From: Verrucomicrobiota bacterium
GTDB lineage: Bacteria; Verrucomicrobiota; Verrucomicrobiia; Verrucomicrobiales; Verrucomicrobiaceae
Length of the DNA: 35,386 nt
Assembly: GCA_026397605.1 (NCBI GenBank)
Contig: JAPLUM010000660.1
Location: 1-35,386, forward strand
Direction: 5' to 3'
Shown: in pieces, positions 3,147 to 29,862 of the stretch
Layout of the letters: every line of letters starts with the position of its first letter
Numbering within the stretch: position 1 is the stretch's first letter
Translations under genes and position numbers: made by a program
Notes under the pieces: model-generated
Database searches by the model: none
What the model was told of the DNA's origin: nothing
The model's input: the letters and a program-made list of their open reading frames with translations, nothing else

Positions 3147-3155
3147 AACGAAAGG

Positions 3156-7085: not shown

Positions 7086-8499
7086 ATCATCCCTCCGCAC
7101 CACACGCCGCTACTTCCTCGGCCAATGCACTGGCGTTTCTGTAGGTGCGATGGCGCTGCATGCAATGGGTCAGCAGGAGTCTGTTGGGCTGCCGCAGTTA
7201 CCACATTTTGCAGCCAAGGCAAAACGGGTGATCTTCCTCACGCAGTCCGGTGGGCCATCGCAGTTGGAGTTGTTTGATCACAAACCAGGGCTCATGCAGT
7301 GGGCAGGTAAAGAGTTGCCCGAGTCGGTGCGCCAGGGTCAGCGACTCACGACGATGACCTCCGGCCAAAAGCAGCTCATCCTACCAGGCATCACGAAATT
7401 TTCCCGCCATGGACAGAGCGGCGCGACCGTCAGCGAGTGGCTTCCGCATACTGGTGAGGTGGCGGATGACCTGTGCTTCATCAAGTCGATGACAACCGAT
7501 CAAATCAATCACGCGCCAGCGATGACGCAGTTTTTGACCGGACACCAACTTCCCGGCAGACCGAGCATGGGCGCATGGATCAGTTACGGCCTGGGCAGCA
7601 TGAATCGTAACCTGCCGGACTACCTCGTGCTCATCTCCAAGATGCAGCGTCCGAGCGATCAACCGCTCTACGATCACTATTGGGGCAGCGGTTTTTTACC
7701 TTCGCGTTATCAAGGAGTGAAGCTGCGCAATTCAAAGGACCCTGTGCTCTATCTAACCGATCCCGAGGGCCTCCCGCGTCATCTGCGCCGAGGCATGCTG
7801 GATGGGCTGGCGGAGCTGAATCAAATGCGCTTTGAACAAACGCATGATCCTGAGATCACCACGCGCATCCGCCAGTATGAGATGGCTTATCGCATGCAGG
7901 CGAGTGTGCCTGAGCTAACAGACCTGAGCGACGAACCGGATCATGTTTTCGACATGTATGGTCCAGATTCACGGCGTGCGGGAAGTTACGCGGCGAACTG
8001 CATCCTTGCACGGCGGCTGGCCGAGCGTGGCGTGCGTTTCATCCAGCTTTTTCATCCTGATTGGGATCATCACAGTCGTCTACCGAGCTGGTGCAGTGCG
8101 CGTTGTCGCGATACCGATCAACCCAGTGCGGCCTTGATCAAAGACTTGAAGCAACGCGGCATGTTGGATGAAACCCTCATCATCTGGGGTGGTGAATTCG
8201 GTCGTGGTGTCGCTGGCCAAGGCAAATGGGACAGCCCCGAAGCTGGACGCGATCATCACCCTCGCTGCTTCACGATGTGGATGGCCGGTGGCGGTGTGAA
8301 ACACGGCACGACGTATGGCGCAACGGACGACTTCAGCTACAACGTTGCCGAAAAGCCAGTCCATGTGCGCGACCTACACGCCACGGTCATGCATCAACTC
8401 GGCATCGACCACGAACGCTTCACCTTCCGATCCCAGGGCCTCGACTTCCGCCTCACCGGCGTGGAGCCGAGTCAGGTGGTGAAAGACGTTCTCGCATGA
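7078..8499 (+). CDS. DUF1501 domain-containing protein, Tat-exported
   Basis: Start overlaps the stop of the upstream gene by 8 nt. TTRRYFLGQ twin-arginine motif; VIFLTQSGGPSQLELFDHKP; IIWGGEFGRGVAGQ…GRDHHPRCFTMWMAGGGVKHG. Confidence 0.93.
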   Translation: MSESSLRTTRRYFLGQCTGVSVGAMALHAMGQQESVGLPQLPHFAAKAKRVIFLTQSGGPSQLELFDHKPGLMQWAGKELPESVRQGQRLTTMTSGQKQLILPGITKFSRHGQSGATVSEWLPHTGEVADDLCFIKSMTTDQINHAPAMTQFLTGHQLPGRPSMGAWISYGLGSMNRNLPDYLVLISKMQRPSDQPLYDHYWGSGFLPSRYQGVKLRNSKDPVLYLTDPEGLPRHLRRGMLDGLAELNQMRFEQTHDPEITTRIRQYEMAYRMQASVPELTDLSDEPDHVFDMYGPDSRRAGSYAANCILARRLAERGVRFIQLFHPDWDHHSRLPSWCSARCRDTDQPSAALIKDLKQRGMLDETLIIWGGEFGRGVAGQGKWDSPEAGRDHHPRCFTMWMAGGGVKHGTTYGATDDFSYNVAEKPVHVRDLHATVMHQLGIDHERFTFRSQGLDFRLTGVEPSQVVKDVLA

Positions 8500-12210: not shown

Positions 12211-15200
12211 ATGTCCCCTTCTCCAGGTTCGTGGTTCGCGCGGGTGATCCGTGTGGTTTTTGGCGAGTTTCAATACCGGCCACCGGACTGGATGCCGCGT
12301 TTTACGCGGGCGGCTGACGCGGAGGTGTGCTCTCGGCCGGGGCGGTATGCGCTGCTCATAGTCCTCTCTGGCGTGGTGGCTGTGGCGGTGCCGCCGATCT
12401 TGGAGTGGCAGAGGGCACATCAGCCGCGTGAGCGACAACTCACGGAGGTCCGCAAACTGAGTGGCACTCTGACGATGCCGAGCTTGACGGCGATGGTGAA
12501 GGACAAGCCGGTGTTTCAAGCGCTGACGCTTAGCTTCAGTGGCTCGGTCGCAAAGCTGGATGCGGTGGGTAAAGCTGCCTCAGGTGTCTCCCTGACCCCG
12601 GCTCATGAAGGGGCGTGGAATTGGACCTCAGAAAAACAGCTGACTTTCACGCCTACGAAAGACTGGCCTGCTGATCAGGAGTATGTCGTCACACTGGACG
12701 CGGCTACGCTGCCAGCGGAGGTGGCCTTAGCGCAGACAAGCTGGAAAGGCCGCACAAAAGCGCTGGAGATCACGGTCACGGAGGCAGAGTTCCAGATTGA
12801 TCCGCGGGACCCGAGTCTGCAAAACATCGTGGTGGGCTACATGTCCAGTCATCCGCTTAGTAAGCTTGAGGTGCAGAACTCCCTGCAAATGGAGGTCGTT
12901 GGTGGTGCCAAGGTCTTTGATTGGAAAGGCCAGAAGCCAGATCAGCTTTTCACGGTCGTGGAAGGCAAGCATGAGCGGAAGTTTTGGCTGCGCAGCACTC
13001 GCGTTCAGGTACCGGAAAAGGAGGACTTTGTGAAAGTCACCTTACGCGGCAGCCTGACGACTACGGTCGGTGGGGCAAAGCTGGGCCAGGACATCCTGCG
13101 CAAGGTGCGTGTGCCAGACATCGAAAGCGGATTCCGCATCACGAGTGCTGAAACGGAGATCGTGAAGACGCAGGAAGGTGAGCCCGAGCAGTTTCTCTTC
13201 ATCAACACCGAAGGCTACGTGACCACGGAGTCGCTCATGAAAAAACTGGGTGTCTGGTTGGAGCCACCGAACTTCACCATCGTCGATCCACTCGGGAAAC
13301 GAGTCAGCCCTAGTGGGAATGATGTGACGGAGGATATGCTGCGTCAGTTCTCTGCTGTGTCGCTGAAGCCAGTGGAGCTGGAGCTCAGTGATGACTCACC
13401 GGCGACGAAGCGTCATGGCTACAAGTTTCTAACCGAAAAACAGGGCAGGCTTTTCATCCGCATCGGCAAAGGGGTGGAGGCACTCGGCGGCTTCCGATTG
13501 GGCAAAGAGTTCCGCGCTTTTCAAAGCGTGCCTGACTTCCCCAAAGAGGTGCAGCTCCTCGGCAAAGGCGGTGTGTTAGCGCTCCAGGGCGAGCGTAAAC
13601 TGTCGGTAAAATCTCGCGGTGTGCCGCATCTGCGTGTGACCATGGCGCGTGTGCCAGCTCGGCAGGTAAATCATCTCGTGGTCATGACAGAGGGCGACTT
13701 TGCCAGTCCTTACTTTGTCATGGGAGACAGCTTTGATGAGTCAAACATCGCCCACTTTCTGCGCCGCGTGCAGCCGGTGGCGATGAAGAATGAATACGAG
13801 GCCTGTTACAGTGTGCTGGACTTTGCCGGCGCGCTACAAACACCGGACAACAGTGACCCGGATGCCTCACGCGGGCTCTTCTTTGTGACCACGGAGGGCG
13901 TGGTGCCATCCTCAGCCAGCTCGCAGAAACGTCTGGAAGGTGATGACGTGGAGGACGACTGGTCTGAGATCGGCGCTGAGGCCAGGGAGAAGCGTTTCGT
14001 GCTGGTGACGGATCTCGGCCTCATGGTGAAACGCAATGCGAATGGCAGTCGAGATGTCTTTGTGCAGAGCATCCAGAAGGGTGAGCCTGTGAATGCGGTC
14101 ACCATCACCGTGCTGGCCAAGAATGGTGAATACCTGCTGCAACAAACCACCGCAGATGGTCACGCGCTGCTGCCGAGTTTAGAGAACTTCCAGCGTGAGA
14201 AGCGACCTGTGGCCATCGTGGCTTCTCTGGGCAATGACCTTGCTTTTTTACCCTTTGAGCGGCCAGATCGTTTGCTGGACTTTTCCCGGTTTGACATCGG
14301 TGGTGTGCTGGCTTCTGAAGGTGAGGCCTTGGAGGCCTTTGTCTTCACGGAGCGCGGCATTTACCGGCCTGGAGATGACATCCACATCGGTGCAGTGGTG
14401 AAGCGGCGTGATTGGTTGGCGGGTCTCACGGGCCTGCCGCTGGAGGTGCAAGTGATGAACTCCAAAGATGAAATCATCGATACTCAAAAGCTCTCTCTTA
14501 CTGCTGACGGCCTCATCGAAGCCAAAACCAAAACCGATGAAGCCGACCCAACAGGGCGCTATGTCGTGCGGCTCTACCTTGTGCGTGATGATGAGCGTAT
14601 CCGCTTGGGGCAGACGGTCATTCGAGTGGAGGACTTCCAGCCAGACCGCATGAAGTTAGACGTCACACTCGCTGGAGATAACGGTGGCGGTTGGCTCCAA
14701 CCCAAGGGCATCTCGGCCAAAGCCACGCTTCAAACTTTGTTCGGCTTTGCCGCAGCTGATCGCACACTGAAAGCCCGCCTGGAACTGACTCCAGGCGATT
14801 TTGCCTTCGAAGCCTATCCTGACTACACCTTTCATAATCGCCTGCCCATGACCTCACTCATGGACGAACAGACGCTGGAGCCTGGACAAAAAGTGGAGCT
14901 AGGTGAAGTGAAGACGGATGCTGCTGGCAGCGCTGAATTTAACCTTGGCATGGAGCGCTTTGCTCAGAGCTGCTTTCAGGCAAATCTGTTGATTGAAGCA
15001 TTCGAGGCTGATGGGGGACGCAGCGTTCGTTTTGGTAAAAGTTTCCTCGTAGCAGAGTTGCCGTATGTCATCGGCTACAAGGCAGATGCCAAGCTGGACT
15101 ACCTGGGCAAAGACATGCAGGCGAGCGTGCGTTTCATGGCGCTGGGACCCACTGTTAAACCTGTGGCAGCGCCTGCACTCACGGCGCGCATCGTGCAGAT

Positions 15201-18078
15201 ACGCCATGTGTCTGTGCTGACTAAGCAGGAAAACGACAGCTACGCCTACATCTCCACCCGCCGTGAAAGTACGCTGAGTGAGACGCCCTTTCGTTTGCCT
15301 GTAGAAGGCAGCTCCTTCAGCCTGCCGACCAGTGCTGCTGGTGAGTATCGTCTAGAGCTGCGTGATCTGGAGAACCATGTCGTGTGCAGCACCGTCTTTA
15401 ACATCGTCGGTCAAGGGGATGCAGGTCGCAGTCTGGAGCGTGATGCTGAACTCGGCATCAAACTCGCCAAGACAACCTGGAACAGTGGCGACTCCCTGGA
15501 GGCCAGTCTCAGCGCTGCCTATACGGGCGCGGGCCTGCTCACCCTGGAGCGTGAGCGGGTGCTCGGCTGGCAGTGGTTCAAAGCAGGCACACCCGCAAGT
15601 GTGCAGCACATGACTCTACCTGAAAGCATCGAAGGCTCCACCTATATGAACGCATCCTTTGTTCGGGCATTGGACTCACCTGAAATCTTTACCACACCGC
15701 TCAGCTATGCTGTGGCGCATTTTACGGCGAACCCAGACAAGCACCGTATCTCCCTCACGCTGGATGCGCCAGCAATCGTGAAGCCTGGAGAGCAGCTCAC
15801 CATTGGCTTCCAAGCAGCCAAGCCATGCCGCATCGTTGTCTATGCAGTGGATGCAGGCATTCATCAAATCAGTGACTACTCGCTGCCAGATCCACTGGCG
15901 CATCTGGATCGCCAACGCGCTTTGGAAGTGCAGACCGAGCAGATGATGGACCTGCTCATTCCCGAGTTTAGTCTGATCTCCAAAGCGAAAGCCTATGGTG
16001 GCGATGCTGATAAGCCACTGCGCCTCGGTTTGAACCCTTTCAAGCGCCGTCGTGAGCCGCCGGTGGTGTATTGGAGCGGACTCATCGAAGCTGGCCCGGA
16101 GCGGAAAGAAGTGAGCTACAGCGTGCCGGATTACTTTGCTGGAAAGCTTAATCTCATGGCCGTCGCAGTCGCCGCAGAGGGTGTTGGCCGAGCAGAGACG
16201 AGTTGCCTTGTGCGGGGGCCCTTGGTGCTGACGCCGAATGTGCCCTTCTTTGCTGCGCCTGGAGATGAATTCACGGCATCGCTCACCGTCGCCAATAATC
16301 TGGAAGGTGCCGAAGCACAGCAGCCTATTTCCCTGGTGGCTCAGGTCACGCCACATTTGGAACTCATCGAGTCACCGCAGGTGCCGCTGAACATCGCCGC
16401 AGGCACAGAGGACACCGTGCGCTTCCGCGTGAAGGTGAAAGATGAACTAGGCAGCGCAGAGATCACCTTTAAAGCCGAGGTCGCTGGCCAAACTGTGCTA
16501 CGCCGCGCCACGCTGAGTGTGCGACCTGCCGCGCCGTTCATCACGAATGTGCAAAGCGGTTGGTTCAGGGAACCGACGAAAGACGTGAATGTGAAGCGCC
16601 AAATGTTCCCGCAGTTTCGCAAGCTAGAAGCCAGCATCTCGGCACTGCCACTGGGACTGGCCCGTGGGCTGGAAGCTTACCTGCACGAGTATCCCTACGG
16701 CTGCTCGGAGCAGATCACTAGCCGGGCCATTGCGCGACTACTATTGAGCAAAGAAGTGGACTTTGGTCTAGATGCCGCTGAATCCGCTCGGCAATTGGAT
16801 ACCTCCTTTCAACTGCTGCGCAGCCGACAAAATAGCGATGGCGGTTTTGGCTACTGGGGCTCTGATGCCAATGGCGGGATTGATTACCTCTCTGTCTATG
16901 TCACCCGATTTCTGACTGAGGCACGGGACGCAGGCCACGCTGTGCCATCCGCCTTGCTAGACAGTGCCCGCTCACGCATGCAGCAGATGGCCCGTGCGGA
17001 GCCGCATGGCCTGGATGATGCCAGCATCCAAGCCGCCGCCATCTACCTGCTGACACGTCAGGGCATCAACACCTCTAGCCAAGTTTTGAATCTGCGTGAT
17101 CATCTGCGCACCCATTTTAAAGAAGAAGTCTGGCGCACCCATCTCGTCTCTGCCTATTTGGCCAGCACCTATGCCCTGCTGAAGCAGCAGAAAGAAGCCG
17201 AAACACTCATCACGGGCTATTGGCAAAGTGTGCGTAAAGCACGCAGCGCTGCCAGCTGGAGAGGCGACTACTATCTCGATCCGCAAGTCAGCCAGGCAGA
17301 AGGCTTCGCGCTCGTTTGCAGGCACTTCCCTGAGATCGGCAGTGAGTTCCGTTATGAAGACCTCGCCATCATCACCGAACCACTTTCACAGCGCTTTAAC
17401 ACGCTAAGTGCTGCGACCAGTATCCTTGCTCTCAAAGCCTACTCCGACCTTGCCAAACAAGCGCAGGTGAAGCTTTCCATCAGCGAGCTCAGTCGTACTC
17501 AGGCCGCCGTCAGTGCGCTTGTCACCGAACAAAGCGGCCTCGTGAAAAGCACCTTCACTGCGCAAGCCGCAAGTCTGCGCTTTGGCCTGAAACAAGAAGG
17601 CAGTGATCTGGGTGCTTTTTATCAAGTCACTGAGTCCGGCTACGATCTCGGCCTGCCAAGCGAGCGCATTCGCAACGGTCTTGAAGTCTATCGCGAGATC
17701 ATCGATGCCGAAGGTAAGGCCGTCACCACTCTCAAAGTTGGTGAAGGTACCACCGTGCGTCTGCGACTGCGAAACATCTCACCCGATGATCTGAGTAACA
17801 TCGCCCTGCTCGACCTGCTGCCAGGCAGCTTTGAGATCGAGCCGAACAACCTCCGTCCAGGTCGTAATGCAGTGCCAGGAGCTGATTTTGTCGATGTCCG
17901 AGAAGATCGGAACCTCTTCTTCTGCTCGCTCGATAAAGGTGAATCCAAGACCTTTACCTATCGCATCAAACCCATCGCCGCCGGCACCTACATCATCCCT
18001 CCCCTCTTCGCCGAAGCAATGTACGACCGAGCCATTCATGGCCGCGAGGGCGATGGCAAGGTGGTGGTGGAACCGTGA
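12211..18078 (+). CDS. Bacterial alpha-2-macroglobulin family protein with thioester motif
   Basis: 1955 aa. N-terminal TM anchor (YALLIVLSGVVAVAVPPILEW); MG-domain features (FVFTERGIYRPGDDIHIGAVVKR); thioester region YPYGCSEQITSR (CSEQ at nt 16702-16713); helical TED region; C-terminal MG/receptor-like domain. Confidence 0.94.
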   Translation: MSPSPGSWFARVIRVVFGEFQYRPPDWMPRFTRAADAEVCSRPGRYALLIVLSGVVAVAVPPILEWQRAHQPRERQLTEVRKLSGTLTMPSLTAMVKDKPVFQALTLSFSGSVAKLDAVGKAASGVSLTPAHEGAWNWTSEKQLTFTPTKDWPADQEYVVTLDAATLPAEVALAQTSWKGRTKALEITVTEAEFQIDPRDPSLQNIVVGYMSSHPLSKLEVQNSLQMEVVGGAKVFDWKGQKPDQLFTVVEGKHERKFWLRSTRVQVPEKEDFVKVTLRGSLTTTVGGAKLGQDILRKVRVPDIESGFRITSAETEIVKTQEGEPEQFLFINTEGYVTTESLMKKLGVWLEPPNFTIVDPLGKRVSPSGNDVTEDMLRQFSAVSLKPVELELSDDSPATKRHGYKFLTEKQGRLFIRIGKGVEALGGFRLGKEFRAFQSVPDFPKEVQLLGKGGVLALQGERKLSVKSRGVPHLRVTMARVPARQVNHLVVMTEGDFASPYFVMGDSFDESNIAHFLRRVQPVAMKNEYEACYSVLDFAGALQTPDNSDPDASRGLFFVTTEGVVPSSASSQKRLEGDDVEDDWSEIGAEAREKRFVLVTDLGLMVKRNANGSRDVFVQSIQKGEPVNAVTITVLAKNGEYLLQQTTADGHALLPSLENFQREKRPVAIVASLGNDLAFLPFERPDRLLDFSRFDIGGVLASEGEALEAFVFTERGIYRPGDDIHIGAVVKRRDWLAGLTGLPLEVQVMNSKDEIIDTQKLSLTADGLIEAKTKTDEADPTGRYVVRLYLVRDDERIRLGQTVIRVEDFQPDRMKLDVTLAGDNGGGWLQPKGISAKATLQTLFGFAAADRTLKARLELTPGDFAFEAYPDYTFHNRLPMTSLMDEQTLEPGQKVELGEVKTDAAGSAEFNLGMERFAQSCFQANLLIEAFEADGGRSVRFGKSFLVAELPYVIGYKADAKLDYLGKDMQASVRFMALGPTVKPVAAPALTARIVQIRHVSVLTKQENDSYAYISTRRESTLSETPFRLPVEGSSFSLPTSAAGEYRLELRDLENHVVCSTVFNIVGQGDAGRSLERDAELGIKLAKTTWNSGDSLEASLSAAYTGAGLLTLERERVLGWQWFKAGTPASVQHMTLPESIEGSTYMNASFVRALDSPEIFTTPLSYAVAHFTANPDKHRISLTLDAPAIVKPGEQLTIGFQAAKPCRIVVYAVDAGIHQISDYSLPDPLAHLDRQRALEVQTEQMMDLLIPEFSLISKAKAYGGDADKPLRLGLNPFKRRREPPVVYWSGLIEAGPERKEVSYSVPDYFAGKLNLMAVAVAAEGVGRAETSCLVRGPLVLTPNVPFFAAPGDEFTASLTVANNLEGAEAQQPISLVAQVTPHLELIESPQVPLNIAAGTEDTVRFRVKVKDELGSAEITFKAEVAGQTVLRRATLSVRPAAPFITNVQSGWFREPTKDVNVKRQMFPQFRKLEASISALPLGLARGLEAYLHEYPYGCSEQITSRAIARLLLSKEVDFGLDAAESARQLDTSFQLLRSRQNSDGGFGYWGSDANGGIDYLSVYVTRFLTEARDAGHAVPSALLDSARSRMQQMARAEPHGLDDASIQAAAIYLLTRQGINTSSQVLNLRDHLRTHFKEEVWRTHLVSAYLASTYALLKQQKEAETLITGYWQSVRKARSAASWRGDYYLDPQVSQAEGFALVCRHFPEIGSEFRYEDLAIITEPLSQRFNTLSAATSILALKAYSDLAKQAQVKLSISELSRTQAAVSALVTEQSGLVKSTFTAQAASLRFGLKQEGSDLGAFYQVTESGYDLGLPSERIRNGLEVYREIIDAEGKAVTTLKVGEGTTVRLRLRNISPDDLSNIALLDLLPGSFEIEPNNLRPGRNAVPGADFVDVREDRNLFFCSLDKGESKTFTYRIKPIAAGTYIIPPLFAEAMYDRAIHGREGDGKVVVEP

Positions 18079-18087
18079 GGTTTTTTC

Positions 18088-20400
18088 ATGTTCCGCCGTT
18101 TCATCCAACACCGCATCTGCCGCTACACGCTGGCTCTCATCGCGGCTTTAACGTTAGTGTATGGCTTGCTGCCAGATGCCGGGCTTTATCCGACGGACTT
18201 CCGTTTCTCTCGGACCTTGTTGGATCGTGATGGGCGGCTGTTGCATCTGGCTTTAACAACCGATGGCAAATACCGTCGCCATGTGCCGCTGGCAGACATC
18301 AACCCGCTCCTGATCGAGGCCACGCTCGAACTCGAAGATCGGCATTTCTATGAGCATCCGGGAGTGAATCCGCTCTCGCTTCTGCGCGCGACTTGGGGTG
18401 CCATCACGGGCTCCGCTCGCGGGGGTGGATCCACGATCACGATGCAGTTGGCCCGACTACGTCACGGTCTGCGAACGCGTTCTGCTTATGGCAAGCTGGT
18501 GCAGATTTTCCGGGCCATCCAAATGGAGAGACATCATGACAAAGCCGCCATTCTCGAGGCTTATCTGAACCAGGCACCGTATGGCGGAAACGTCGAAGGC
18601 ATTGGCTCAGCAAGCCTGCTCTGGTGCGGGAAGACAGCCACGGATCTGACCTTGCGTGAGTCGGTGGCTTTGGCCGTGCTACCTCAAAGCCCAACACGTC
18701 GGCGGCCACGGGCGGAAGGCGTGAACCTCAGCCTCACGCAGGCTCAGCATCGCCTCTGGGAAAGGCTGCGTGCTTTGAAAAAGCTCGAGAGTGACCCTCT
18801 GGATGCCAGCTTCACGCTGAAACAACTCATGCCAGCACCGCGTGACGTACCGCACTTGGCACGCCGATTATTTACGGAGCAACCAGCGACCACACGCGAA
18901 GCCTCAGCGCTAGCTTTGAAGACCAGCGTGAGTCTGCCACAGCAGCAAGGGGTGGAGTCTGTGCTAGCCGATTACATCGGACGAAAGAGTGAGCTGGGCA
19001 TCACGAATGCCTGTGCACTTCTCGTGAGAGCATCCACCCGCGAGGTGCTAGCTTATGTGGGATCCAGCGGCTTTCTGGATGCCCGAATCCAGGGGCAGGT
19101 CGATGGCGTGCTCGCACGTCGTTCGCCTGGATCAGCGTTAAAACCGTTCATTTATGCTTTAGCAATGCAGCAAGGTCTCATCCACCCGCATACCTTGCTG
19201 CGTGATGGGCAGACTTCGTTTGGAGGTTACAATCCAGAAAATTTTGATCGTCAATTTTCAGGCCCCATCGCTGCAAAGGATGCGCTGTATCATAGCCGCA
19301 ATATCCCTGCGGTCTCGTTAGCCCAAAAGCTCGCAGCCCCCGGTTTGTATGGCTTTCTCAAATCGGCCGGAGTCGCGCTACCGCACCCCGCCGAGCATTA
19401 CGGCCTAGCCTTGCCACTCGGTGGCGCGGAGGTGAGCATGGAGGAACTGGCCGCACTCTACTGCCTGCTGGCAGATGATGGTCTAGCTCGGCCCATTCAG
19501 ATGCAAACGGCCACCAAAGAGCTTTCACGTCCGCCGCTGCTGACGGAAGAGGCACGCTATTTGACTCGTGAAATGATGCGCACCCGTGAAGGCGAAGCCG
19601 CACTGGATGACTCTGCCGTGCTTTGGAAGACCGGCACGTCTCATGGCTTCAGAGATGCCTGGGCGGCGGGTATTCGCGGAGATCATGTGCTTGTCGTCTG
19701 GATCGGCAATTTCAATGGCCGTGGCAACCCTGCTTTCATCGCCCGTGAATGCGCAGCCCCCTTGCTCTTTGAGGTCTTCCGCCATTTGCATCTGCCTTTG
19801 AAGCGTGAGTTCAAACCAACAAACATCCGCGATGTCGAACTCTGCGCGGTATCCGGTCAGTTGCCGACACCCCTCTGCCAGCATCACGTGCAGGGCGGAT
19901 TCATCCCCGGCGTATCTCCCATCACCGCCTGTGAGATCCACCGCGAGGTTTGGATCGACCAAACGAGTCAGCTGCGTGTCTCAACTGATGATGGTACACG
20001 ATCCTTACGCCGAGACGTCTATGAATTCTGGCCCCCTGACATGCTGGAAATGTTTCGCCGCGCCGGAGTCCCACGTCGTGAACCACCGCCCCTGGAGCCA
20101 AGCGCCAGCTCCTTGCAGGCCACAGATCACGCAGCAGCACCGCAGATCCGTTCACCCCAACCCTCCCTAGTTTACACCTTGCAGGCATCGTCCAAGGACC
20201 GCCGCAGCGTGCCACTCAGAGCCGATGCAGCCCCCGGAGTCAGCCGCCTCTTTTGGTTTGCCGACAGCCGTTTTCTTGGCTCCACCCCACCCACCACCCC
20301 ACTCCTCTGGCAAGCCGAAGCAGGCCACTGGCGCATCCACGTCCTCGACGATCAAGGCCGCAGCAGCGCCGTGAAAGTACGTGTGGAGGTGGTGCCGTGA
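18088..20400 (+). CDS. pbpC: Penicillin-binding protein 1C
   Basis: GT51: LELEDRHFYEHPGVNPLSLLRA…GGSTITMQLARL; transpeptidase SPGSALKPF (SxxK), HSRN, WKTGTSHGFRDAW (KTG); C-terminal BiPBP_C-like domain. Directly downstream of the A2M gene. Confidence 0.94.
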   Translation: MFRRFIQHRICRYTLALIAALTLVYGLLPDAGLYPTDFRFSRTLLDRDGRLLHLALTTDGKYRRHVPLADINPLLIEATLELEDRHFYEHPGVNPLSLLRATWGAITGSARGGGSTITMQLARLRHGLRTRSAYGKLVQIFRAIQMERHHDKAAILEAYLNQAPYGGNVEGIGSASLLWCGKTATDLTLRESVALAVLPQSPTRRRPRAEGVNLSLTQAQHRLWERLRALKKLESDPLDASFTLKQLMPAPRDVPHLARRLFTEQPATTREASALALKTSVSLPQQQGVESVLADYIGRKSELGITNACALLVRASTREVLAYVGSSGFLDARIQGQVDGVLARRSPGSALKPFIYALAMQQGLIHPHTLLRDGQTSFGGYNPENFDRQFSGPIAAKDALYHSRNIPAVSLAQKLAAPGLYGFLKSAGVALPHPAEHYGLALPLGGAEVSMEELAALYCLLADDGLARPIQMQTATKELSRPPLLTEEARYLTREMMRTREGEAALDDSAVLWKTGTSHGFRDAWAAGIRGDHVLVVWIGNFNGRGNPAFIARECAAPLLFEVFRHLHLPLKREFKPTNIRDVELCAVSGQLPTPLCQHHVQGGFIPGVSPITACEIHREVWIDQTSQLRVSTDDGTRSLRRDVYEFWPPDMLEMFRRAGVPRREPPPLEPSASSLQATDHAAAPQIRSPQPSLVYTLQASSKDRRSVPLRADAAPGVSRLFWFADSRFLGSTPPTTPLLWQAEAGHWRIHVLDDQGRSSAVKVRVEVVP

Positions 20401-21155: not shown

Positions 21156-21167
21156 AACTCGTTTTAC
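21152..21167. other. Palindrome GTAAAAC-tc-GTTTTAC spanning both convergent stop codons
   Basis: Perfect 7-bp arms with 2-nt centre; includes the TAA of the PIN gene (+) and the TAA of the response regulator (-). Confidence 0.5.
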
Positions 21168-21778
21168 ACCTTCACCAGCCCGCGCCGGATCGCCTCTGCG
21201 GTGGCTTGGGCGCGGTCGTTGACTTTGAGTTTCATCAGAATGCGGCTGACGTGCTGCTTCACAGTGTCTTCACTGATGCCGAGGGTGGCGGCGATTTCTT
21301 TGTTGGCATTGCCACGGGTGACGAGGGTCAGGATCTCACGTTCACGCGGAGTGATTTCAGGTTCAGCCAGGTGGTCTTTGAGTCGTTGGGCGATTTCGTC
21401 AGGCAGGCTGCGTTCACCTTTGGCCACGGCGCGAATAGCCTTCAGCAGGGCCTCGCGAGAGGCGGACTTTTGCAAGTAACCGAGTGCGCCAGCTTTGAGT
21501 GCGGAGCGGATTTCTTCATCTCGGGCAAAGGTGGAAAAAATGAGCACGTGCGCTTCAGGATGTTCACGCAAGAGAGCGGTCGTAGCCTCAATGCCGCTAA
21601 TGCCGGGGAGTTGGAGATCCATGAGCACGACATGAGGCTTCTTTTGATCAAAAAGAGCCGCCGCGTCTTCTCCACGATCTGTTTCACCGACGACTTTCAG
21701 ATCATCCTCCAACTCGAGTGAGGCAACTAAGCCGCTGCGGACGACGAAGTGATCGTCAATGATGAGGAGGGTGATCAT
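21164..21778 (-). CDS. Response regulator, NarL/FixJ family
   Basis: MITLLIIDDHFVVRSGLVASL…VVLMDLQLPGISG…ITPREREILTLVTRGNANKEIAATLGISEDTVKQHVSRILMKL. Confidence 0.93.
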   Translation of the reverse strand: MITLLIIDDHFVVRSGLVASLELEDDLKVVGETDRGEDAAALFDQKKPHVVLMDLQLPGISGIEATTALLREHPEAHVLIFSTFARDEEIRSALKAGALGYLQKSASREALLKAIRAVAKGERSLPDEIAQRLKDHLAEPEITPREREILTLVTRGNANKEIAATLGISEDTVKQHVSRILMKLKVNDRAQATAEAIRRGLVKV

Positions 21779-21793
21779 GGGAGAAGAAAAGAA

Positions 21794-21814
21794 GTAATCA
21801 GTAATCAGTAATCA
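21794..21814 (+). repeat. Heptanucleotide tandem repeat (GTAATCA)x3
   Basis: gtaatca gtaatca gtaatca, directly upstream of the response regulator start and overlapping the stop codon of the next minus-strand ORF. Confidence 0.85.
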
Positions 21815-22167
21815 GTTAAGCCTGCCGGTCGAACTTCCATGGGCTGGGGCTCGGTGTTTCGAGTTGGCATCGCGTAGTAAACCGCTGAGGCGGCCAAAAG
21901 CATCATTGAGGTGGGAAAGGCAAAAGCGACGATCAAAGCTCCAAGAGTGGAGCGAGAGTTTCGCAGGGACCAAATCAATGGGATTAGAGCTAAGGCACCG
22001 ATCCAGCCCCACTTTCCACTGAGAACAAACAACGCCACTAACAGCCAGCCAATGGCTGTTCCACCCTCAGCAGCTAGGGGGAGCTCAAAAGCGAATCCAG
22101 CATCGAAGCCTATTGTTTCCCCAGTCGTGAGGCAATACTTGACTGAGGTGAAAGTCAGGTTGGACAT
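21805..22167 (-). CDS. Small hypothetical membrane protein
   Basis: 120 aa with two hydrophobic stretches (GWLLVALFVLSGKWGWIGALALIPLIW; TLGALIVAFAFPTSMMLLAASAVYYA); same strand as the response regulator. Confidence 0.6.
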   Translation of the reverse strand: MSNLTFTSVKYCLTTGETIGFDAGFAFELPLAAEGGTAIGWLLVALFVLSGKWGWIGALALIPLIWSLRNSRSTLGALIVAFAFPTSMMLLAASAVYYAMPTRNTEPQPMEVRPAGLTDY

Positions 22168-22316
22168 GAAGTCAATTTAGGTTCTCAGGTTGGATTCGTA
22201 AAGGCCACAATGGATTTGGCAGCGCTGCGTCCTGACCGGTGATCTTTAACCGCTGAAAGGACGCTAACCGATACCTCCGATATGTGTAGTCTGCTGGGCT
22301 CGGATAACTTGCTTTG

Positions 22317-22622
22317 CTAGAGCGTGCCCTGGCCCCCGAGATGCTGGGTGATGAATGCCTCTGGCGTGATGGGCTGGGGTTTGTAGCCTGCGCCTGCAAG
22401 GGAGCGGAAATGCCGGTCCTCGGTGATGACGTAGTCAGCATGGGCGGCAATGGCGCAGTCGGCGAATTTGTCGTCATCAGCATCAGCGGGGATGGTGAGG
22501 AAGCGGTAGGCGGGGGAGAGGTAGCGGATGACGCCGCGTGTCTCGTCCACCAGCTCAATGAACTCCGGCGCACGGCGACCGAACATCCCGACGAGGACAT
22601 TGGTATCGATGCAGACGATCAT
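22317..22622 (-). CDS. PIN-domain protein (COG1569-like), apparently missing its central segment
   Basis: MIVCIDTNVLVGMFGRR and AYRFLTIPADADDDKFADCAIAAHADYVITEDRHFRSLAGAGYKPQPITPEAFI are typical N- and C-terminal PIN segments, but the usual central stretch between them is absent. Confidence 0.72.
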   Translation of the reverse strand: MIVCIDTNVLVGMFGRRAPEFIELVDETRGVIRYLSPAYRFLTIPADADDDKFADCAIAAHADYVITEDRHFRSLAGAGYKPQPITPEAFITQHLGGQGTL

Positions 22623-22874
22623 GCGCGGCGGTATGGATGCGCGGCACGGTGCTCCGCCACGGCAGCGGCGATGCTCTCGGGCGTGAATCTCCCCTGGGCG
22701 CGGGCATCATCAGCGGCGTCATCCAGCTCGGCGGTGATTTCTTGCAACCTGATCTCTAGTAAGAAACGTCGAGCCAACTCCAGAGCAGCATCCGGCAAAG
22801 AATCCACCTGCGAGTGCAGTAGCGGACGCAGGACTTTGGGGTCTTTTGGAGTCGGTGCGTTTAAAGTGATCATG
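22619..22874 (-). CDS. Small helical putative antitoxin partner of the PIN protein
   Basis: MITLNAPTPKDPKVLRPLLHSQVDSLPDAALELARRFLLEIRLQEITAELDDAADDARAQGRFTPESIAAAVAEHRAAHPYRRA; stop overlaps the ATG of the PIN ORF. Confidence 0.6.
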
Positions 22875-22918
22875 CTGGGGATTTTGTCACAAGCGAGGCA
22901 TGCTTGCAAGGTAGCGTT

Positions 22919-22937
22919 GGGCTTCAGCCCGCGCGGG
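22919..22937. repeat. REP-like palindromes GGGCT-tc-AGCCC overlapping CCCGCGCGGG
   Basis: Direct reading; intergenic, upstream of the minus-strand TA-like pair. Confidence 0.5.
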
Positions 22938-23041
22938 TTTCGAAATCGGCTCCTCTGACATCAGCGTCTGGTTAGCGTCAAATCAGCGGTTTTATCCGTC
23001 AGTCTCTCACCGCAAAATTCACCGCACGTCATGCCTCTCCT

Positions 23042-23124
23042 CCAAATGCCCGCCGCCTCGACTGCCCGCCGCAGCCAAGGCTTGACCTCTCACGGCTTTA
23101 TCGCTTCCTTCGGCACATGGATTC
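23042..23124 (+). repeat. 83-bp imperfect direct repeat, copy 1
   Basis: ccaaatgcccgccgcctcgactgcccgccgcagccaaggcttgacctctcacggctttatcgcttccttcggcacatggatt… aligns without gaps to 23851-23933 (constant 809-bp offset). Confidence 0.9.
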
Positions 23125-23779
23125 AAAAACCATTCCTCCTGACATGATCAGCTACTACGGAAGAAGGGCTAGCGAGTATGAGCAGATCTATGCCAAGGTA
23201 GAACGTCAGGAAGATCTTCGGCGAATACGCGGAATCGTGGGTGCGGGATTTTGCGGTCACGACGTGCTGGAAGTTGCGTGTGGCACTGCCTACTGGACGG
23301 AAGCCTTCGCTGCGGAGGCAAGATCGGTCTTGGCATGCGATCTCAGTTCAGAGGTGTTGGAGATTGCGCGCGCCAAAGAATGGGGAACCGGTTCCATCGA
23401 GTTTTGCCAAGCCGACGCTTATGCGCTGCCAGCGTTTAAGCGCCAGTTTTCAGCTGCTTTCTCTGGGTTTTGGTGGTCGCATATTCCGCGAAGCAGGCTC
23501 GCAGGCTTCCTCGACAACTTTCACCAGAAGCTTCAACGAGGCTCCAAGGTCATGTTCATCGATAATCGATTCGTTGAAGGAAGCAGCACCCCAATTTTCC
23601 GGACCGATGAACATGGAGATTCGTTTCAACAACGCCATTTGGCGGATGGCAGTGTCCACGAAGTCCTCAAGAATTTCCCTTCGGAAAGTGAGTTATTAAG
23701 CGCGGTCTCAGACTCAGCTTCAACGGCAGGGGTTCTGCTAACCGACTACTTTTGGATTCTGAGCTACCAGATCAAATAA
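23117..23779 (+). CDS. Class I SAM-dependent methyltransferase
   Basis: ISYYGRRASEYEQIY, DVLEVACGTAYWTEAFAAEA, SVLACDLSSEVLEIARAK, FCQADAYALP. Confidence 0.85.
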   Translation: MDSKTIPPDMISYYGRRASEYEQIYAKVERQEDLRRIRGIVGAGFCGHDVLEVACGTAYWTEAFAAEARSVLACDLSSEVLEIARAKEWGTGSIEFCQADAYALPAFKRQFSAAFSGFWWSHIPRSRLAGFLDNFHQKLQRGSKVMFIDNRFVEGSSTPIFRTDEHGDSFQQRHLADGSVHEVLKNFPSESELLSAVSDSASTAGVLLTDYFWILSYQIK

Positions 23780-23850
23780 AGAAACATCCCAACATGAAAG
23801 ACGGAGCATGAACAACGTGTCTGACCCTGTAAACCTCAGAGGCATCCCAT

Positions 23851-23933
23851 CCAAACGCCCGCCGCCTAGACGACCCGCCGCAGCCAAGGCTTGACCTCTC
23901 GCGGCTTTATCGCTTCCATCGGTGCATGGATTA
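23851..23933 (+). repeat. 83-bp imperfect direct repeat, copy 2
   Basis: ccaaacgcccgccgcctagacgacccgccgcagccaaggcttgacctctcgcggctttatcgcttccatcggtgcatggatt…; same orientation as copy 1, roughly nine substitutions, no indels. Confidence 0.9.
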
Positions 23934-24058
23934 AAGAGTCTTTTCGTTGGGGAACTCCTGCCCTCTTTCCCAATTCAACCGCGTTTTCCCAGAAAAAACT
24001 GTGCATAAAACTGATTCACCCACAATTAAGTGCGGCTAAACAAGGTCGGCCAAAAAAC

Positions 24059-24724
24059 ATGAATGTAGAGTTCCATCACTACGATGCTAGTCAGAAGCGC
24101 TGGTTCACTAAGGTGGCGAAGAGAGCCGCTGAGCGTGTGTCTACCATAGTTTCTGAATTTGATTATCAAATGCCAGACACTTGGTCCGCTGAATTCGCGT
24201 TGAAAGAAATGACCCGAACCAGAGTTCATCGCATTAGAGTCCAGCATCAGACGATTATATCTGTTACCTTTGCCGCTGCTAGTTGGCAAAGCCTAGATTC
24301 ATCCGCCGACGATGCTATCGCTCAGCTTGCTTCAGCGGTTCTATGCGTTGTTCCTCAGGACTTGGCAGACCAGTTGCGTGGCGCGTTTATCGAAAATGGA
24401 GTCAGCCAGTTGCGCCCGATTTCGATGACTAGTGAGGACGCTCCTCCAGACTCTAACCATCATGTTGAGTTGTGTATCAGGAGCCAGGGCATTGGCCTTG
24501 ATGAGTTCTACAGTCTCTATGACCGATTAGATGTTCACCTTCGAGATCAGAGACTAGGGTTTGTCGATGGCTCAAGCTGGAGCGGGGACAGCTACTGCAT
24601 CGACTTTTCACTACCTATTCGGGAGGCTGGGATACGATGTGTAATGAGCTTTATCACTGAGCAAGGGCACCGTGATCGCGTCACCCTTTCAGATATTTCA
24701 ACAGGAGAGAGTCTGGAGAGCTAG
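24059..24724 (+). CDS. Hypothetical protein (221 aa), no recognised family
   Basis: Likely start MNVEFHHYDASQKRWFTKVAKRAAERVST…; the ORF track's upstream extension begins inside repeat copy 2 and is probably untranslated. Codon usage looks more AT-rich than neighbours. Confidence 0.65.
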   Translation: MNVEFHHYDASQKRWFTKVAKRAAERVSTIVSEFDYQMPDTWSAEFALKEMTRTRVHRIRVQHQTIISVTFAAASWQSLDSSADDAIAQLASAVLCVVPQDLADQLRGAFIENGVSQLRPISMTSEDAPPDSNHHVELCIRSQGIGLDEFYSLYDRLDVHLRDQRLGFVDGSSWSGDSYCIDFSLPIREAGIRCVMSFITEQGHRDRVTLSDISTGESLES

Positions 24725-24768
24725 AAACAGGGCAAACATAAGAACGAATTGAGCAGCGCTTACCTTCG

Positions 24769-26811
24769 TCATTTCCCCAGCGGCAGCTCGACACACACCG
24801 TCGTGCCTTTTCCCGACACGCTTTCCCATTTCACCTCGGCACCGACTTTCCTCGCTCGTTCGCGGATGCCGATGCAGCCGAAGTGACCGGGTTGGCCGTG
24901 GGTTTGGGCGGTGGGGTCAAAGCCTTGGCCGTTGTCGATGATGCGGAGAGACAGGAGTGAGGGAGTGGTGGAGAGGTGAAGCTGGATTTGGGTGGGCTGG
25001 GCGTGTTTGAGGGCGTTGGTTATGGCCTCTTGGGCGATCATGCGGAGGTGGTGAGTGACGGGCGGCGGGATGGGGCCGATGGGGTGGAGGTCGAGCGTGA
25101 TGGCGATGCCTTCGGGAGCTTTGTTGGCGAGGAGTTGCAGGGCCTCGGGCAGGTTGGTGGCGTGCGCGGTGTCGTCGCGGAGGTCGGAGACGAGGTTGCG
25201 GGCTTCGCTTTGGATGCGGGAGACGAGGTTGCGTGAGGTTCCGAGGAGGCTGCGGGCTTTGTCTTCAAGCGGACGCGTTAGGGCTGCATCGAGCCGGAGT
25301 GAAAGGCCGGTGAGTTCTTGCTCCAAGGTGTCGTGGAATTCGCGGGCGATGCGCTGGCGTTCTTCGAGCGTGGCTTGTTCGACGATCCTGCGTTCGAGTC
25401 GGGTGATTTGGCGGCGTTGCTGAGTGATCCAGAACAAGCTGAGCGAAACGATGGCACCGAGGATGCTGATGGTCATGATGAGGCGTTGGGCATCCCAAAA
25501 CGGTGCTTTGCTGAGGATGCGAATATCCGAGATCGAACGCAAGAGCAGCGAGGCGCGATCTGGCTCGGAACGGAAGCCTTTGTCAGTGCTGGCAGATTCG
25601 ACAAGGCAAATGCCGGTGAGTGCGCAGGAAGAGCCGAGTTCAAAGTCCGGCGTGTTTGATTGAAGTAGGAAAGCACGGATAGGGGTGCCGCCAGAGGTGA
25701 AGCGTAGCTCGAAGCCATCGGCAGTGCGTAAAACATCCTGAAGCACGGCAGGTGACCTGAGATGCACGAGATCGGCATCGTGTGAGCCATCTAGGAAATC
25801 TTGGAGTGAAATATTGACCGCCTCAGGTGCGTCCGCAGGCTCGGTATTGAGTAAGAGCGCATCCGCCAATGAGGCGCTGAATCCAGCCATGATGGGAAAA
25901 CCGATGATCTCGGCTGAATGACCCGACGTGAGATCCATCGGCGTATTGAGTCGGATGGCGATGGAAGGCGATAGCTGTGGTGTTTCGGGTTTATCTTTCG
26001 GGGCTTCGCGTGGTGGCGGAGGTGGTGTGGAATCACGCAGAAAAACACGACCATCAGGGAAAGCCGCGAGCACCGTTCCACGAATGCGGGCACGGTGTTG
26101 GGGCTCATCCGCAGAGCCAAAAGGCAAGAGTGCGGCGACAGAGGTGATGGGCAGCGAATCGGCAGCAGACGGGACATGGATCACGACGACATCACTCCAA
26201 TCGGTGACACGTAAATAGGGGAACACGAGTTGCCGCCGATCATTGATGCCGCCAGCGGCGAGGGCGGTGATGCGCAGGCGGGCATCGATCAGATTGGGCG
26301 CAGATGCCAGGGCTGCATCGACACGGACCTCGATCACACGACTGCCGATGGCCAGTCGGAGTAGGCTGCGATTTTCATCCAAGGGCGTGAGTGTGCGCCC
26401 GAGGCCTTCGATGCTGACTCTTTGGTAATGAAAGCGCCCGGTGGTGAGGTCCTCGTAACCTGCTTTTACCGGCTCTGGCGCTGGCCCATGCCCTAGAATA
26501 TGCAACTCAATCACATCAACCCCGGGCAGATAAAGCCCAGCCATTGTGAAGCCTTTGACCCGCACTTGATCACCCACAATCAGGTCATGGCGGGCAGGTT
26601 TAAAATGCAGGTGAGTACCCGCACTGTTGTCCTGGACAAAAGCCGTGCCGCCACTCTCCACAAAGCCAATGGTGGCCGTGAGATCGACAGGCAGTTTCTC
26701 CAAAGACCGCTCATACGGCAGTGTGCGGATGTCGATGGCGCGAGTCAGCACGTTTTGACCCGCAGCCTGGGAAAGCAGCAGAAGAGAAAGGAGTGCAGTG
26801 CGCGGAATCAC
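24769..26811 (-). CDS. Sensor histidine kinase with long N-terminal tandem beta-domain (OB-like) sensor
   Basis: Signal peptide; ~430-aa beta-rich region; TM (RLIMTISILGAIVSLSLFWI); EERQRIAREFHDTLEQELTGLSLRL (HisKA_3); MIAQEAITNALKHAQPT, IIDNGQGFDP, GCIGIRERARKVGAE (HATPase). GTG start at 26811. Confidence 0.9.
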   Translation of the reverse strand: MIPRTALLSLLLLSQAAGQNVLTRAIDIRTLPYERSLEKLPVDLTATIGFVESGGTAFVQDNSAGTHLHFKPARHDLIVGDQVRVKGFTMAGLYLPGVDVIELHILGHGPAPEPVKAGYEDLTTGRFHYQRVSIEGLGRTLTPLDENRSLLRLAIGSRVIEVRVDAALASAPNLIDARLRITALAAGGINDRRQLVFPYLRVTDWSDVVVIHVPSAADSLPITSVAALLPFGSADEPQHRARIRGTVLAAFPDGRVFLRDSTPPPPPREAPKDKPETPQLSPSIAIRLNTPMDLTSGHSAEIIGFPIMAGFSASLADALLLNTEPADAPEAVNISLQDFLDGSHDADLVHLRSPAVLQDVLRTADGFELRFTSGGTPIRAFLLQSNTPDFELGSSCALTGICLVESASTDKGFRSEPDRASLLLRSISDIRILSKAPFWDAQRLIMTISILGAIVSLSLFWITQQRRQITRLERRIVEQATLEERQRIAREFHDTLEQELTGLSLRLDAALTRPLEDKARSLLGTSRNLVSRIQSEARNLVSDLRDDTAHATNLPEALQLLANKAPEGIAITLDLHPIGPIPPPVTHHLRMIAQEAITNALKHAQPTQIQLHLSTTPSLLSLRIIDNGQGFDPTAQTHGQPGHFGCIGIRERARKVGAEVKWESVSGKGTTVCVELPLGK

Positions 26812-26814
26812 AGG

Positions 26815-28317
26815 TCAGAAACTATCCGGCAGCTTACCCCAGTCGCCAGTGTCTTCACCATCACTTTCGGGGAGGCTAGCGATGGGACGGCCATCATGAT
26901 CACTGACGGTAACGACGCCGCCTTTAGGCGTGGCCACGGCCTGGATGCCCGTACTGCCAGTATTATTGAGATGCAGTCCACCGGCTTCTTCATAGACCCC
27001 CATGGCCACGCGCTGGAAGCCGAGGTCATTATTGATGAGCATGCGACCACCATGATCCGTAGCATCCAAGGTGAGCTGAGCAGTACCATCGACAGTCGCA
27101 AGCACCACCGAGCCCGCGACGGGACCGCCGGAAAGTGAGGCAATGCCTGCGCTCTCGGCGGAGGGACCGTAGGCACAGACGATGCCGCCTTGATCCCCTT
27201 CGCCCAGCATGACGATGGGACGATGATGCTTTTGCACAATGGTCACGGCTTTTTCAGCCGTGACAGCCGTGAGCACTTTCGTCTCTGGATCGACGGGCGA
27301 GATGACCTCGATGGAGGAGACATCTGCACTGGCGATGGCGCGCACGCCTTCTTCATCGGTCAGGCTTTGCAAAGTCAGCGCTGAGTGACTGCCGAAGTGA
27401 TGAGCCAGCATCACCCGCACGTCGCCTTGGGCATCATGCATGGTCAGGCTGCTGGCCACATCTAGCGCCGAGATGTCCACCGACTTTTGCCCACCGATTC
27501 CACGTAGGCAGAGGCTACTGCCAAACTCACCTGCCGTGAGGCTTGCCTGGGTGCCAGTACCAGGGATTTTGTTTTCGTGCACACAGATTTCAGCCGCACC
27601 GGTCATGGCTAAGATGGAAACGCTATGATCTTCTTCTGGGCTGTGCATGAGCAGTGCAGGACCATCTTCCCTCGCCACTAGCGCGATGGCGTCAGATTGT
27701 CCGGCAATGCCCGCAGTCAACATGCCGCCTGTTTCATCAGCACGCAGTTTTAGCATGGTGTGACCGTTGCCATCAGCAAAGATGAGATTGGTGCTAGGCG
27801 TGGCTTTTTCTCCATCCGGGCTGGGCATCTCCGTAATACCATGGATCAGCACCGCCCGCGCCTGACCATCTTCCTGGAGCACAGCGATGGAGCCACCATC
27901 CTCCTGAGCACGCATCAGGGCACCAGGCTGGCCGTCGTCTGAAAGCACAGCGACGCAGCCACAATTGTCCCGAATGAAGAGGTCCGTCCGAGGTTTAAAA
28001 TCTCGGCCTTTGAGCTGTAAATGAGGATCTCCAGACGACTCGAAGCCCATGTTTACGGCAGGAGCAGACGACTCGGGATAATGCAGGTGGATGTAGCCGC
28101 CATCTGTATCTGCACCCATGTGAACTGCGATGTAGCGCTGATCTTCCGCAGGCCTGACCACGAAATCGGTGCATTCTAAATACACACGGCGGATGCCTTC
28201 AGGGTCGTTTTCGATACTGACCACCTTTTCAAGTTCATCCAGCCGCCCCTGGACCCGCTTGAGTTCTTCTTGCACAACGATGAGAGCTGTTTGGAGATCC
28301 TGTAGTGTCATACTCAT
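26815..28317 (-). CDS. Hypothetical coiled-coil + beta-repeat protein
   Basis: 500 aa, no signal peptide; N-terminal coiled coil (LQDLQTALIVVQEELKRVQGRLDELEKVV), then many short Gly/Asp-turn beta repeats (e.g. GCVAVLSDDGQPGALMRAQEDGGSIAVLQEDGQARAVLIHG). Stop is 3 bp from the HK start. Confidence 0.82.
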   Translation of the reverse strand: MSMTLQDLQTALIVVQEELKRVQGRLDELEKVVSIENDPEGIRRVYLECTDFVVRPAEDQRYIAVHMGADTDGGYIHLHYPESSAPAVNMGFESSGDPHLQLKGRDFKPRTDLFIRDNCGCVAVLSDDGQPGALMRAQEDGGSIAVLQEDGQARAVLIHGITEMPSPDGEKATPSTNLIFADGNGHTMLKLRADETGGMLTAGIAGQSDAIALVAREDGPALLMHSPEEDHSVSILAMTGAAEICVHENKIPGTGTQASLTAGEFGSSLCLRGIGGQKSVDISALDVASSLTMHDAQGDVRVMLAHHFGSHSALTLQSLTDEEGVRAIASADVSSIEVISPVDPETKVLTAVTAEKAVTIVQKHHRPIVMLGEGDQGGIVCAYGPSAESAGIASLSGGPVAGSVVLATVDGTAQLTLDATDHGGRMLINNDLGFQRVAMGVYEEAGGLHLNNTGSTGIQAVATPKGGVVTVSDHDGRPIASLPESDGEDTGDWGKLPDSF

Positions 28318-28410
28318 GGCAGTTTAAAGGTAAGAGTTCCGTCAAAGATAAGCGAGTGCATCCTGAAGGAGCAAGTCTGCATCCATAATCCATGTAACTA
28401 ACGTTTTCAG

Positions 28411-28452: not shown

Positions 28453-29862
28453 ATGCTTATTCGCCACGATTTTTTACGCTCTGCTTGTCTTATCAGTTTG
28501 GTCTGCAGCTCCTGCACTGTAGGGCCTGACTTCAAACTTCCTGAGATGAAGCTCACTTCCCGCTGGAAACAGCAGGCAGATGTTTCAGACCTGGCACTGC
28601 CGGATCAATGGTGGACGCTGTTTAAAAATAGTACGCTCAATGGACTGGTGGAGCGTGCGCTTTTATACAATCAGGATCTAGCAAGTGCCGAGGCACGTGT
28701 CGCCACGGCAAAAGCCATGCTGGGCGTGGAACGCGCGGCCTGGTTTCCTCAGCTCAGCATGGATAACAGAGCTGCCTATGAGCAACTCTCTGCAAACAGT
28801 ATCGGCGCTAACTTGCCACCTGGTGTGCCGCTGCCATCACTGGAGAGAGATCGTCATCAGGCTTTCCTCAATTTGAACTACGAGGTCGACCTCTGGGGAA
28901 AAGTGCGCCGCAGTGTGGAGGCCTCAAAAGCACGTGAAACTGCGTCCGTGGACAATCTGGCGGCTCAGAGACTGGTGGTCGCAGCGGAAGTTTCACGCAG
29001 CTTTTTTCAGATCGCCTCGCTGGATACTCAGGAGCATGTTTTGCAAGAAACCATCGCCCTACGGCAGGAGTCGCTATCACTTCAGCAATCCCGTTTTCAG
29101 GGTGGTCTAGCGAATGAGATGGACGTAGCCCGCTCACGCACCGAGTTGGAATTGGCTAAAAACGACAAGATCAATATCGAGCGTCAACGTGGCAACGCGG
29201 AGAATGCTTTGGCCGTGCTTTGTGGCGAGCTTCCGTCTTCGTTTCGCTTGGCTAAAAGCCACCATTTGCCGAGTCCGCCGAGAATCTCTACTGGCGTGCC
29301 GAGCACTTTGCTTCAGCGTCGTCCAGACATCCGTGCGGCTGAGCAGGCCATGCGCGAGGCCAATGCCAATGTCGGTGTGGCCAAAGCCAACTTTTATCCA
29401 GCTTTCAGCCTCGTCGGCAATGGCGGCTTAGAAAGCGTCGGAGCGGAAGATTTCATCGAGTGGAAAAGCCGCACCGCCAACATTGGTCCACAACTCAGCA
29501 TTCCGATCTTCCAAGGCGGACGTCTGCGGGGAAACATGCGCAGTGCCCAGGCTAAACACCAGGAAAGCGTGGCAGCCTATCGTCAATCGATCCTGACGGC
29601 TCTGGGAGAAGTGGAAAACGCCATGCTAGACGTGAACGCTTACGGTCGCCAACGTGCTGCTGTGAGTGCTGCTGTGGCGGCTTCTCAAGAGACCAGCAAG
29701 CTAGCCCGACTGCGCTATGAAAAAGGCCTAGCTAGCTACTTCGAAGTCGTCGATGCCGACCGCACCGTGCTCACCACACGTCTTCTTCAGGCTCAGCTTG
29801 ATGGCCAGCGCCTCACCGCAACTGTGCAGATGATCCGCGCTTTGGGTGGTGGGTGGAAATGA
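28453..29862 (+). CDS. Efflux transporter outer membrane factor lipoprotein, NodT/OprM family
   Basis: Signal + lipobox-like SLVCSSC|TVGPDFKLPE; DQWWTLF; NLNYEVDLWGKVRRSVEASKA; LLQRRPDIRAAEQAMREANANVGVAKANFYPAFSL; IFQGGRLRGNM. Confidence 0.95.
   Translation: MLIRHDFLRSACLISLVCSSCTVGPDFKLPEMKLTSRWKQQADVSDLALPDQWWTLFKNSTLNGLVERALLYNQDLASAEARVATAKAMLGVERAAWFPQLSMDNRAAYEQLSANSIGANLPPGVPLPSLERDRHQAFLNLNYEVDLWGKVRRSVEASKARETASVDNLAAQRLVVAAEVSRSFFQIASLDTQEHVLQETIALRQESLSLQQSRFQGGLANEMDVARSRTELELAKNDKINIERQRGNAENALAVLCGELPSSFRLAKSHHLPSPPRISTGVPSTLLQRRPDIRAAEQAMREANANVGVAKANFYPAFSLVGNGGLESVGAEDFIEWKSRTANIGPQLSIPIFQGGRLRGNMRSAQAKHQESVAAYRQSILTALGEVENAMLDVNAYGRQRAAVSAAVAASQETSKLARLRYEKGLASYFEVVDADRTVLTTRLLQAQLDGQRLTATVQMIRALGGGWK

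Follow-up and report, generated by a model that had tools for sequence, protein, structure and literature searches.

The gene that we call p500 belongs to a real and conserved gene family which lacks a database model, and it is located in a real operon together with a sensor histidine kinase (HK) and, in relatives, with the response regulator (RR) of this kinase. The architecture is that of an unusual accessory added to an ordinary signalling pair, whose function and fold we infer as described below. The window, meaning the whole stretch of 35,386 nucleotides that was analysed, is one contig of a 6.2-Mb assembly, and the named relatives of the locus are Prosthecobacter and Verrucomicrobiaceae MAGs. 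The features considered are the following:

21164-21778, minus strand: cognate NarL/LuxR-type RR (REC and GerE by Pfam), 84-91% identical to the RR of loci L016, L018 and L019
21779-24768, no strand: about 3 kb inserted between HK and RR (methyltransferase at 23117-23779, plus strand, and unknown ORFs), absent in L018 and L019
24769-26811, minus strand: sensor histidine kinase of 680 aa with a GTG start (HisKA_3 and HATPase_c, DesK/LiaS/NarX-type core; Pfam, NCBIfam and PDB profile)
24775-25053, minus strand: HATPase_c domain of HK (Pfam PF02518, E=3.2e-12)
25171-25362, minus strand: HisKA_3 dimerisation and phospho-acceptor domain of HK, with H493 (Pfam PF07730, E=5.3e-13)
25423-25485, minus strand: predicted single transmembrane (TM) segment of HK (about residues 443-463), from the sequence
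25492-26754, minus strand: putative extracytoplasmic beta-rich sensor of HK (residues 20-440) with OB-like modules, from Foldseek of a low-confidence model
26755-26811, minus strand: signal peptide-like N-terminus of HK (residues 1-19), MIPRTALLSLLLLSQAAGQ, predicted from the sequence
26812-26814, minus strand: 3-nt spacer from the p500 stop (TGA) to the HK start (GTG); TGA-NNN-GTG in six of nine linked loci
26815-28317, minus strand: p500, a 500-aa cytosolic coiled-coil plus beta-repeat protein (ORF with an ATG start; 16 homologues including the window)
26869-28197, minus strand: 11/22-residue beta-strand repeat region of p500 (about residues 41-483), from periodicity and an all-beta low-confidence model
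26956-27069, minus strand: most conserved stretch of the p500 family, LDATDHGGRxLINNDLGFQR...LNNTG (residues 417-454, near the C-terminus), where the most invariant alignment columns cluster
28219-28305, minus strand: N-terminal heptad coiled coil of p500 (residues 5-33), with RLDELE = RhxxhE at residues 25-30 (heptad analysis; model helix 5-29)
28345-28374, minus strand: promoter-like element upstream of p500, TTGCTC-N18-TATCTT, from upstream alignment
28453-29862, plus strand: divergent NodT-type outer-membrane efflux gene (TIGR01845, E=2e-112)

The reading frames of p500 and HK lie at the coordinates given by the original prediction. A genome search found p500 in 16 Verrucomicrobiaceae genomes, the window included. 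These are 13 of the 48 genomes of the genus (Prosthecobacter) and three genomes from two other Verrucomicrobiaceae genera, and a phylum-wide sample of 388 genomes added only distant repeat proteins to the family. Pfam gave no match to p500 at E<=1, NCBIfam and PHROGs gave none, and the profile search against PDB sequences returned only noise, the sole match being a very faint one to OspA (E=0.028). The gene is under purifying selection, with a dN/dS of roughly 0.03-0.13 against the four nearest relatives analysed, more distant comparisons being saturated in dS; HK is also under purifying selection. Description of the p500 family thus fills a gap in the annotation of Verrucomicrobiota, as there is no database model for it.

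The p500 gene ends 3 bp before the GTG of HK, as had been claimed, and the two genes adjoin each other in nine of the 13 genus genomes that carry p500 (the window, G037, G039, G003, G010, G035, G005, G024 and G045). In all nine the distance from stop to start is 3-14 nt, with stop-NNN-GTG in six loci and 5-14 nt in the three others. This coupling persists despite saturated synonymous divergence in several lineages, and identity among the p500 proteins of the nine species goes down to 54%. In addition, the deepest split of the HK tree has p500-linked kinases on either side, so that the pairing is either old or arose more than once. The proposed operon with close translational coupling is supported by this conservation. 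The order p500-HK-RR was found in L018 and L019, where RR lies directly behind HK after a gap of 96-234 bp. Since RR stands behind HK in relatives and is displaced in the window by an insertion, the unit is p500-HK-RR, a three-gene operon in Prosthecobacter. The insertion of about 3 kb is missing from most relatives, and the gap of L016 contains a different stretch of about 4 kb. Unrelated insertions of 3 and 4 kb are seen in this gap in two near relatives (21779-24768 and L020:13140-17074), which suggests an insertion hotspot.

Alignment of the upstream regions revealed a promoter-like element, CTTG-N20/22-TATnnT or, with one more letter in the first box, CTTGC-N17/18-TATnnT, which a scan for the sigma-70 consensus had missed. 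It is placed 50-63 nt upstream of p500 in nine of 15 loci with the strict pattern, expected in 0.3% of shuffles, and in 12 of 15 when relaxed to TAnnnT, at HK-linked and unlinked p500 genes alike. Inspection of the same alignment did not reveal a conserved operator of the RR type. Because of this conserved element, the operon promoter is most likely at 28345-28374.

The kinase gave Pfam matches above the cut-off for both HisKA_3 and HATPase_c, and its H-box (ERQRIAREFHDTLEQEL) and its N, G1 and G2 boxes are intact and conserved in 26 orthologues. Its HisKA_3-HATPase core can be aligned with DesK structures along the entire catalytic part (7ssj, E=1.7e-19). Unlike DesK, which senses through multiple TM helices, HK has one TM segment and a large beta-rich ectodomain, for which no Pfam or PDB-sequence match was obtained. 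The original prediction had divided this ectodomain into about four OB-like modules. Foldseek of its low-confidence model (pLDDT 39) retrieved almost only OB folds, including those of the tandem-OB HIN-200 proteins; however, no periodic repeat was found in the ectodomain, and profile comparison of the four proposed modules showed little similarity among them (at most 37% probability, for M1 and M3). OB-like modules are therefore plausible, and the division into four has partial support.

The p500 protein itself carries no export signal or signal peptide, and it starts with the heptad-like helix that had been noticed. An a/d heptad spans residues 4-35 in each of the 15 homologues tested (shuffle p < 0.0005 for 14, 0.0015 for the remaining one), and the 10 closest of these also carry the trimerisation motif RhxxhE. 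In the p500 model the N-terminal coiled coil is the sole region with pLDDT > 60 over 20 residues, as helix 5-29. Judged from these sequence features, p500 is probably trimeric. The short-strand repeat predicted for the rest of the protein proved to be far above chance by periodicity and by profile autocorrelation. The hydrophobicity period is 11.25 residues; its power is 25.0, whereas the 99% maximum of shuffled sequences is 10.6. The family profile is autocorrelated with z = 7.1 (lag 11) and z = 5.6 (lag 22), and no period appeared in two other ORFs of the window that served as controls. The protein would be composed of around forty short, evenly spaced beta-strands following a trimer-type coiled coil. 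The original prediction had named a structure prediction lacking a regular repeat fold as contrary to it; the AlphaFold model of p500, of low confidence (pLDDT 37), shows a helix and then an all-beta chain, in which strands recur at 11-residue intervals from 414 to 451, and Foldseek with this model gave no match at E<=0.001. The low pLDDT of the p500 and ectodomain models (37 and 39) is due to the use of only 4-5 close sequences as inputs, the more divergent homologues being left out.

The best reading of these data, to which we give somewhat less than an even chance, is a two-component system equipped with a lineage-specific cytosolic trimeric beta-repeat scaffold or modulator encoded by the same operon. 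HK would sense an envelope signal through its beta-rich, probably OB-like periplasmic domain and would pass phosphate to the NarL-type regulator at 21164-21778. Made from the HK transcript, p500 would stay in the cytosol, trimerise via its N-terminal coiled coil and form an elongated beta-repeat body that would act as a sub-membrane scaffold or modulator of HK. We infer in this way the trimerisation of p500, its fold, its position at HK and whatever influence it may have on HK. The role would be the one proposed for the Toastrack proteins (LiaF/VraT) with LiaSR/VraSR, through an unrelated fold; the beta-repeat partner of those systems is thought to be intracellular and has been proposed as a sub-membrane assembly platform (PMC11237479). 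The scaffold reading relies on this precedent, on the coupling kept in nine species with RR directly behind HK in relatives, on the linked kinases at both sides of the deepest HK split, on the family promoter and the strong purifying selection of p500, and on its 11-residue repeat and its coiled coil, in which the 10 closest homologues have RhxxhE.

The LiaFSR/VraTSR systems resemble the locus in that the gene of an all-beta repeat partner adjoins those of a HisKA_3-type kinase and a REC-HTH regulator. The p500 gene is likewise found beside a LiaS-type HK and an RR, and in NCBIfam the HK core scores best against LiaS, far below the cut-off (84 vs 450 bits). In contrast, no Toastrack domain (DUF2154/DUF4097/DUF2807) was detected in p500 among Pfam or PDB profile matches at E<=1. 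Nor does p500 have an N-terminal TM (LiaI-LiaF-TM) domain or any other TM region, since it begins with a soluble heptad helix, and it has a coiled coil plus an 11-residue repeat. HK also differs from LiaS in its 420-residue periplasmic domain. Because p500 lacks the Toastrack features tested (domain match and TM segment), it can be an analogue at most, and we regard it as loosely analogous to LiaF/VraT and not as a member of the group.

The linkage between p500 and HK admits another explanation, a serious possibility which also falls somewhat short of an even chance, in which p500 has a cytosolic role of its own (structural filament, storage or chaperone-like) and HK-RR is a mobile module merely co-transcribed from the p500 promoter. 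A whole-protein search identified an HK orthologue in 39 of the 48 genus genomes, and in 30 of the 39 it has no adjoining p500: 22 of these kinases are behind a bPH_2 protein and eight have neither partner. Conversely, p500 is without an adjoining HK in four of its 13 genus genomes, among them G009, where no orthologous HK was found, and in the other genera none of three p500 genes is beside an HK. The original prediction had taken homologues usually found without a kinase as contrary to its proposal; this is what is observed outside the genus, whereas within it most p500 genes are linked. The pairing is thus lineage-specific and not exclusive. That HK-RR is found behind p500, behind the bPH_2 gene or behind neither depending on the lineage favours an independent role for p500, as does the retention of promoter and sequence by unlinked p500 genes. 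The dS values of the window against near relatives point in the same direction, being 0.51 and 0.88 for p500 and 0.29 and 0.29 for HK; such separate histories suggest recombination between the two genes. The close coupling that outlasts saturated synonymous divergence in several lineages argues against such an independent role, as does the finding that the p500-linked kinases straddle the deepest split among the HK sequences.

The same gene counts (p500 without an adjoining HK in four of 13 genus genomes and in three genomes of other genera, HK without an adjoining p500 in 30) weigh against the scaffold reading, together with the pLDDT of 37 of the p500 model and with the NodT gene, which is beside p500 or within the gene cluster upstream of it in eight of 13 genus loci, a linkage nearly as strong as that with HK. 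For the unlinked p500 genes no consistent common neighbour was found. In G016 an FHA-LuxR regulator lies 114 bp upstream (L029:7841-8704, plus strand), and in G009 the gene is near a run with a PAS kinase and a NarL-type RR (L030:443-9362, minus strand), cases too few to judge.

In HK loci without p500 (L034-L046, L050 and L051), a membrane protein with a bacterial PH domain (bPH_2) is translationally coupled to HK. The genes downstream (RR, PIN, PSCyt/PSD1, DUF1501) are unchanged in several bPH_2 loci. The p500 genomes that were checked have the bPH_2 gene and its small neighbour (cluster C8) at another locus, which indicates that the upstream partner of one kinase was exchanged. As bPH_2 fills the slot before HK in a derived clade, this slot may encode a kinase-side partner, which is a further argument for p500 as a scaffold or modulator. 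A wider proposal, which we consider doubtful, is that p500 founds a new class of cytosolic trimeric 11-residue beta-repeat kinase-side scaffolds for HisKA_3 sensors, for which a membrane PH-domain partner could be substituted in evolution at this place of the operon. Histidine kinases have few accessory proteins that tune them, most of these being membrane-bound, and a soluble trimeric beta-repeat partner, if true, would be a different mechanical solution for tuning kinases. That one kinase is found with p500 in some genomes, with a PH-domain protein in others and by itself in the rest amounts to a natural experiment in which the effect of the partner on the kinase is directly testable.

We consider it unlikely that p500 acts in output or feedback, in the manner of LiaH of the Lia system, and not as a partner on the input side. 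Its first position in the operon would permit bulk production under an autoregulated promoter, and coiled-coil or repeat architectures are common among cytosolic stress effectors; however, the conserved promoter is a simple two-box element that is also present at unlinked p500 genes, and the upstream alignment is devoid of a recognised conserved RR-type operator. A remnant of a phage tail fibre, spike or adhesin is very improbable, even though trimeric fibres do combine a coiled coil with a beta-repeat (PMC4576200). PHROGs (best E=0.23), tblastn against phages and plasmids, and viral contigs yielded no relative, p500 has no phage genes around it and no signal peptide, and it is under strong purifying selection. 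A phage-fibre origin is consequently largely refuted by the lack of a phage homologue or context. Triple-stranded beta-helix fibres such as the C-terminus of T4 gp5 do share regular short beta-repeats with p500, for which a trimer is expected, but p500 is a cytosolic bacterial protein with an 11-residue period and without phage context, and neither the PDB profile search nor Foldseek gave a sequence or fold match to these fibres. The single-layer beta-sheet of OspA has a hairpin repeat of similar length, about 22-23 residues; its faint PDB profile match (E=0.028) is not significant, and OspA is a surface lipoprotein.

Very regular 22-residue repeats (DxNGxxRAxhxVxxDGPxLxh) were observed in proteins of other Verrucomicrobiota families (L058:8608-9510, minus strand; L059:7785-8618, plus strand; L057:2226-3239, plus strand) that have no curated Pfam family. 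Like p500, these coiled-coil/repeat proteins have an N-terminal helix followed by 11/22-residue repeats, with a period of 10.9-11.15 and weak profile matches to p500 (E=5e-13 to 2e-4). Unlike p500, they are shorter (277-339 aa) and have simpler repeats, and no two-component system was seen adjoining them.

Finally, the window contains a second DesK-like HK/RR pair (1842-3923, minus strand) divergent to a PSCyt1-PSCyt2-PSD1 / DUF1501 gene pair (3984-8499, plus strand). The HK-RR studied here has a gene pair of this kind downstream in about half of the loci of its relatives, so that these kinases may control this poorly understood gene pair. An alpha-2-macroglobulin gene followed by that of a penicillin-binding protein (transglycosylase, transpeptidase and BiPBP_C; PBP1C-like) was also identified at 12211-20400 on the plus strand.
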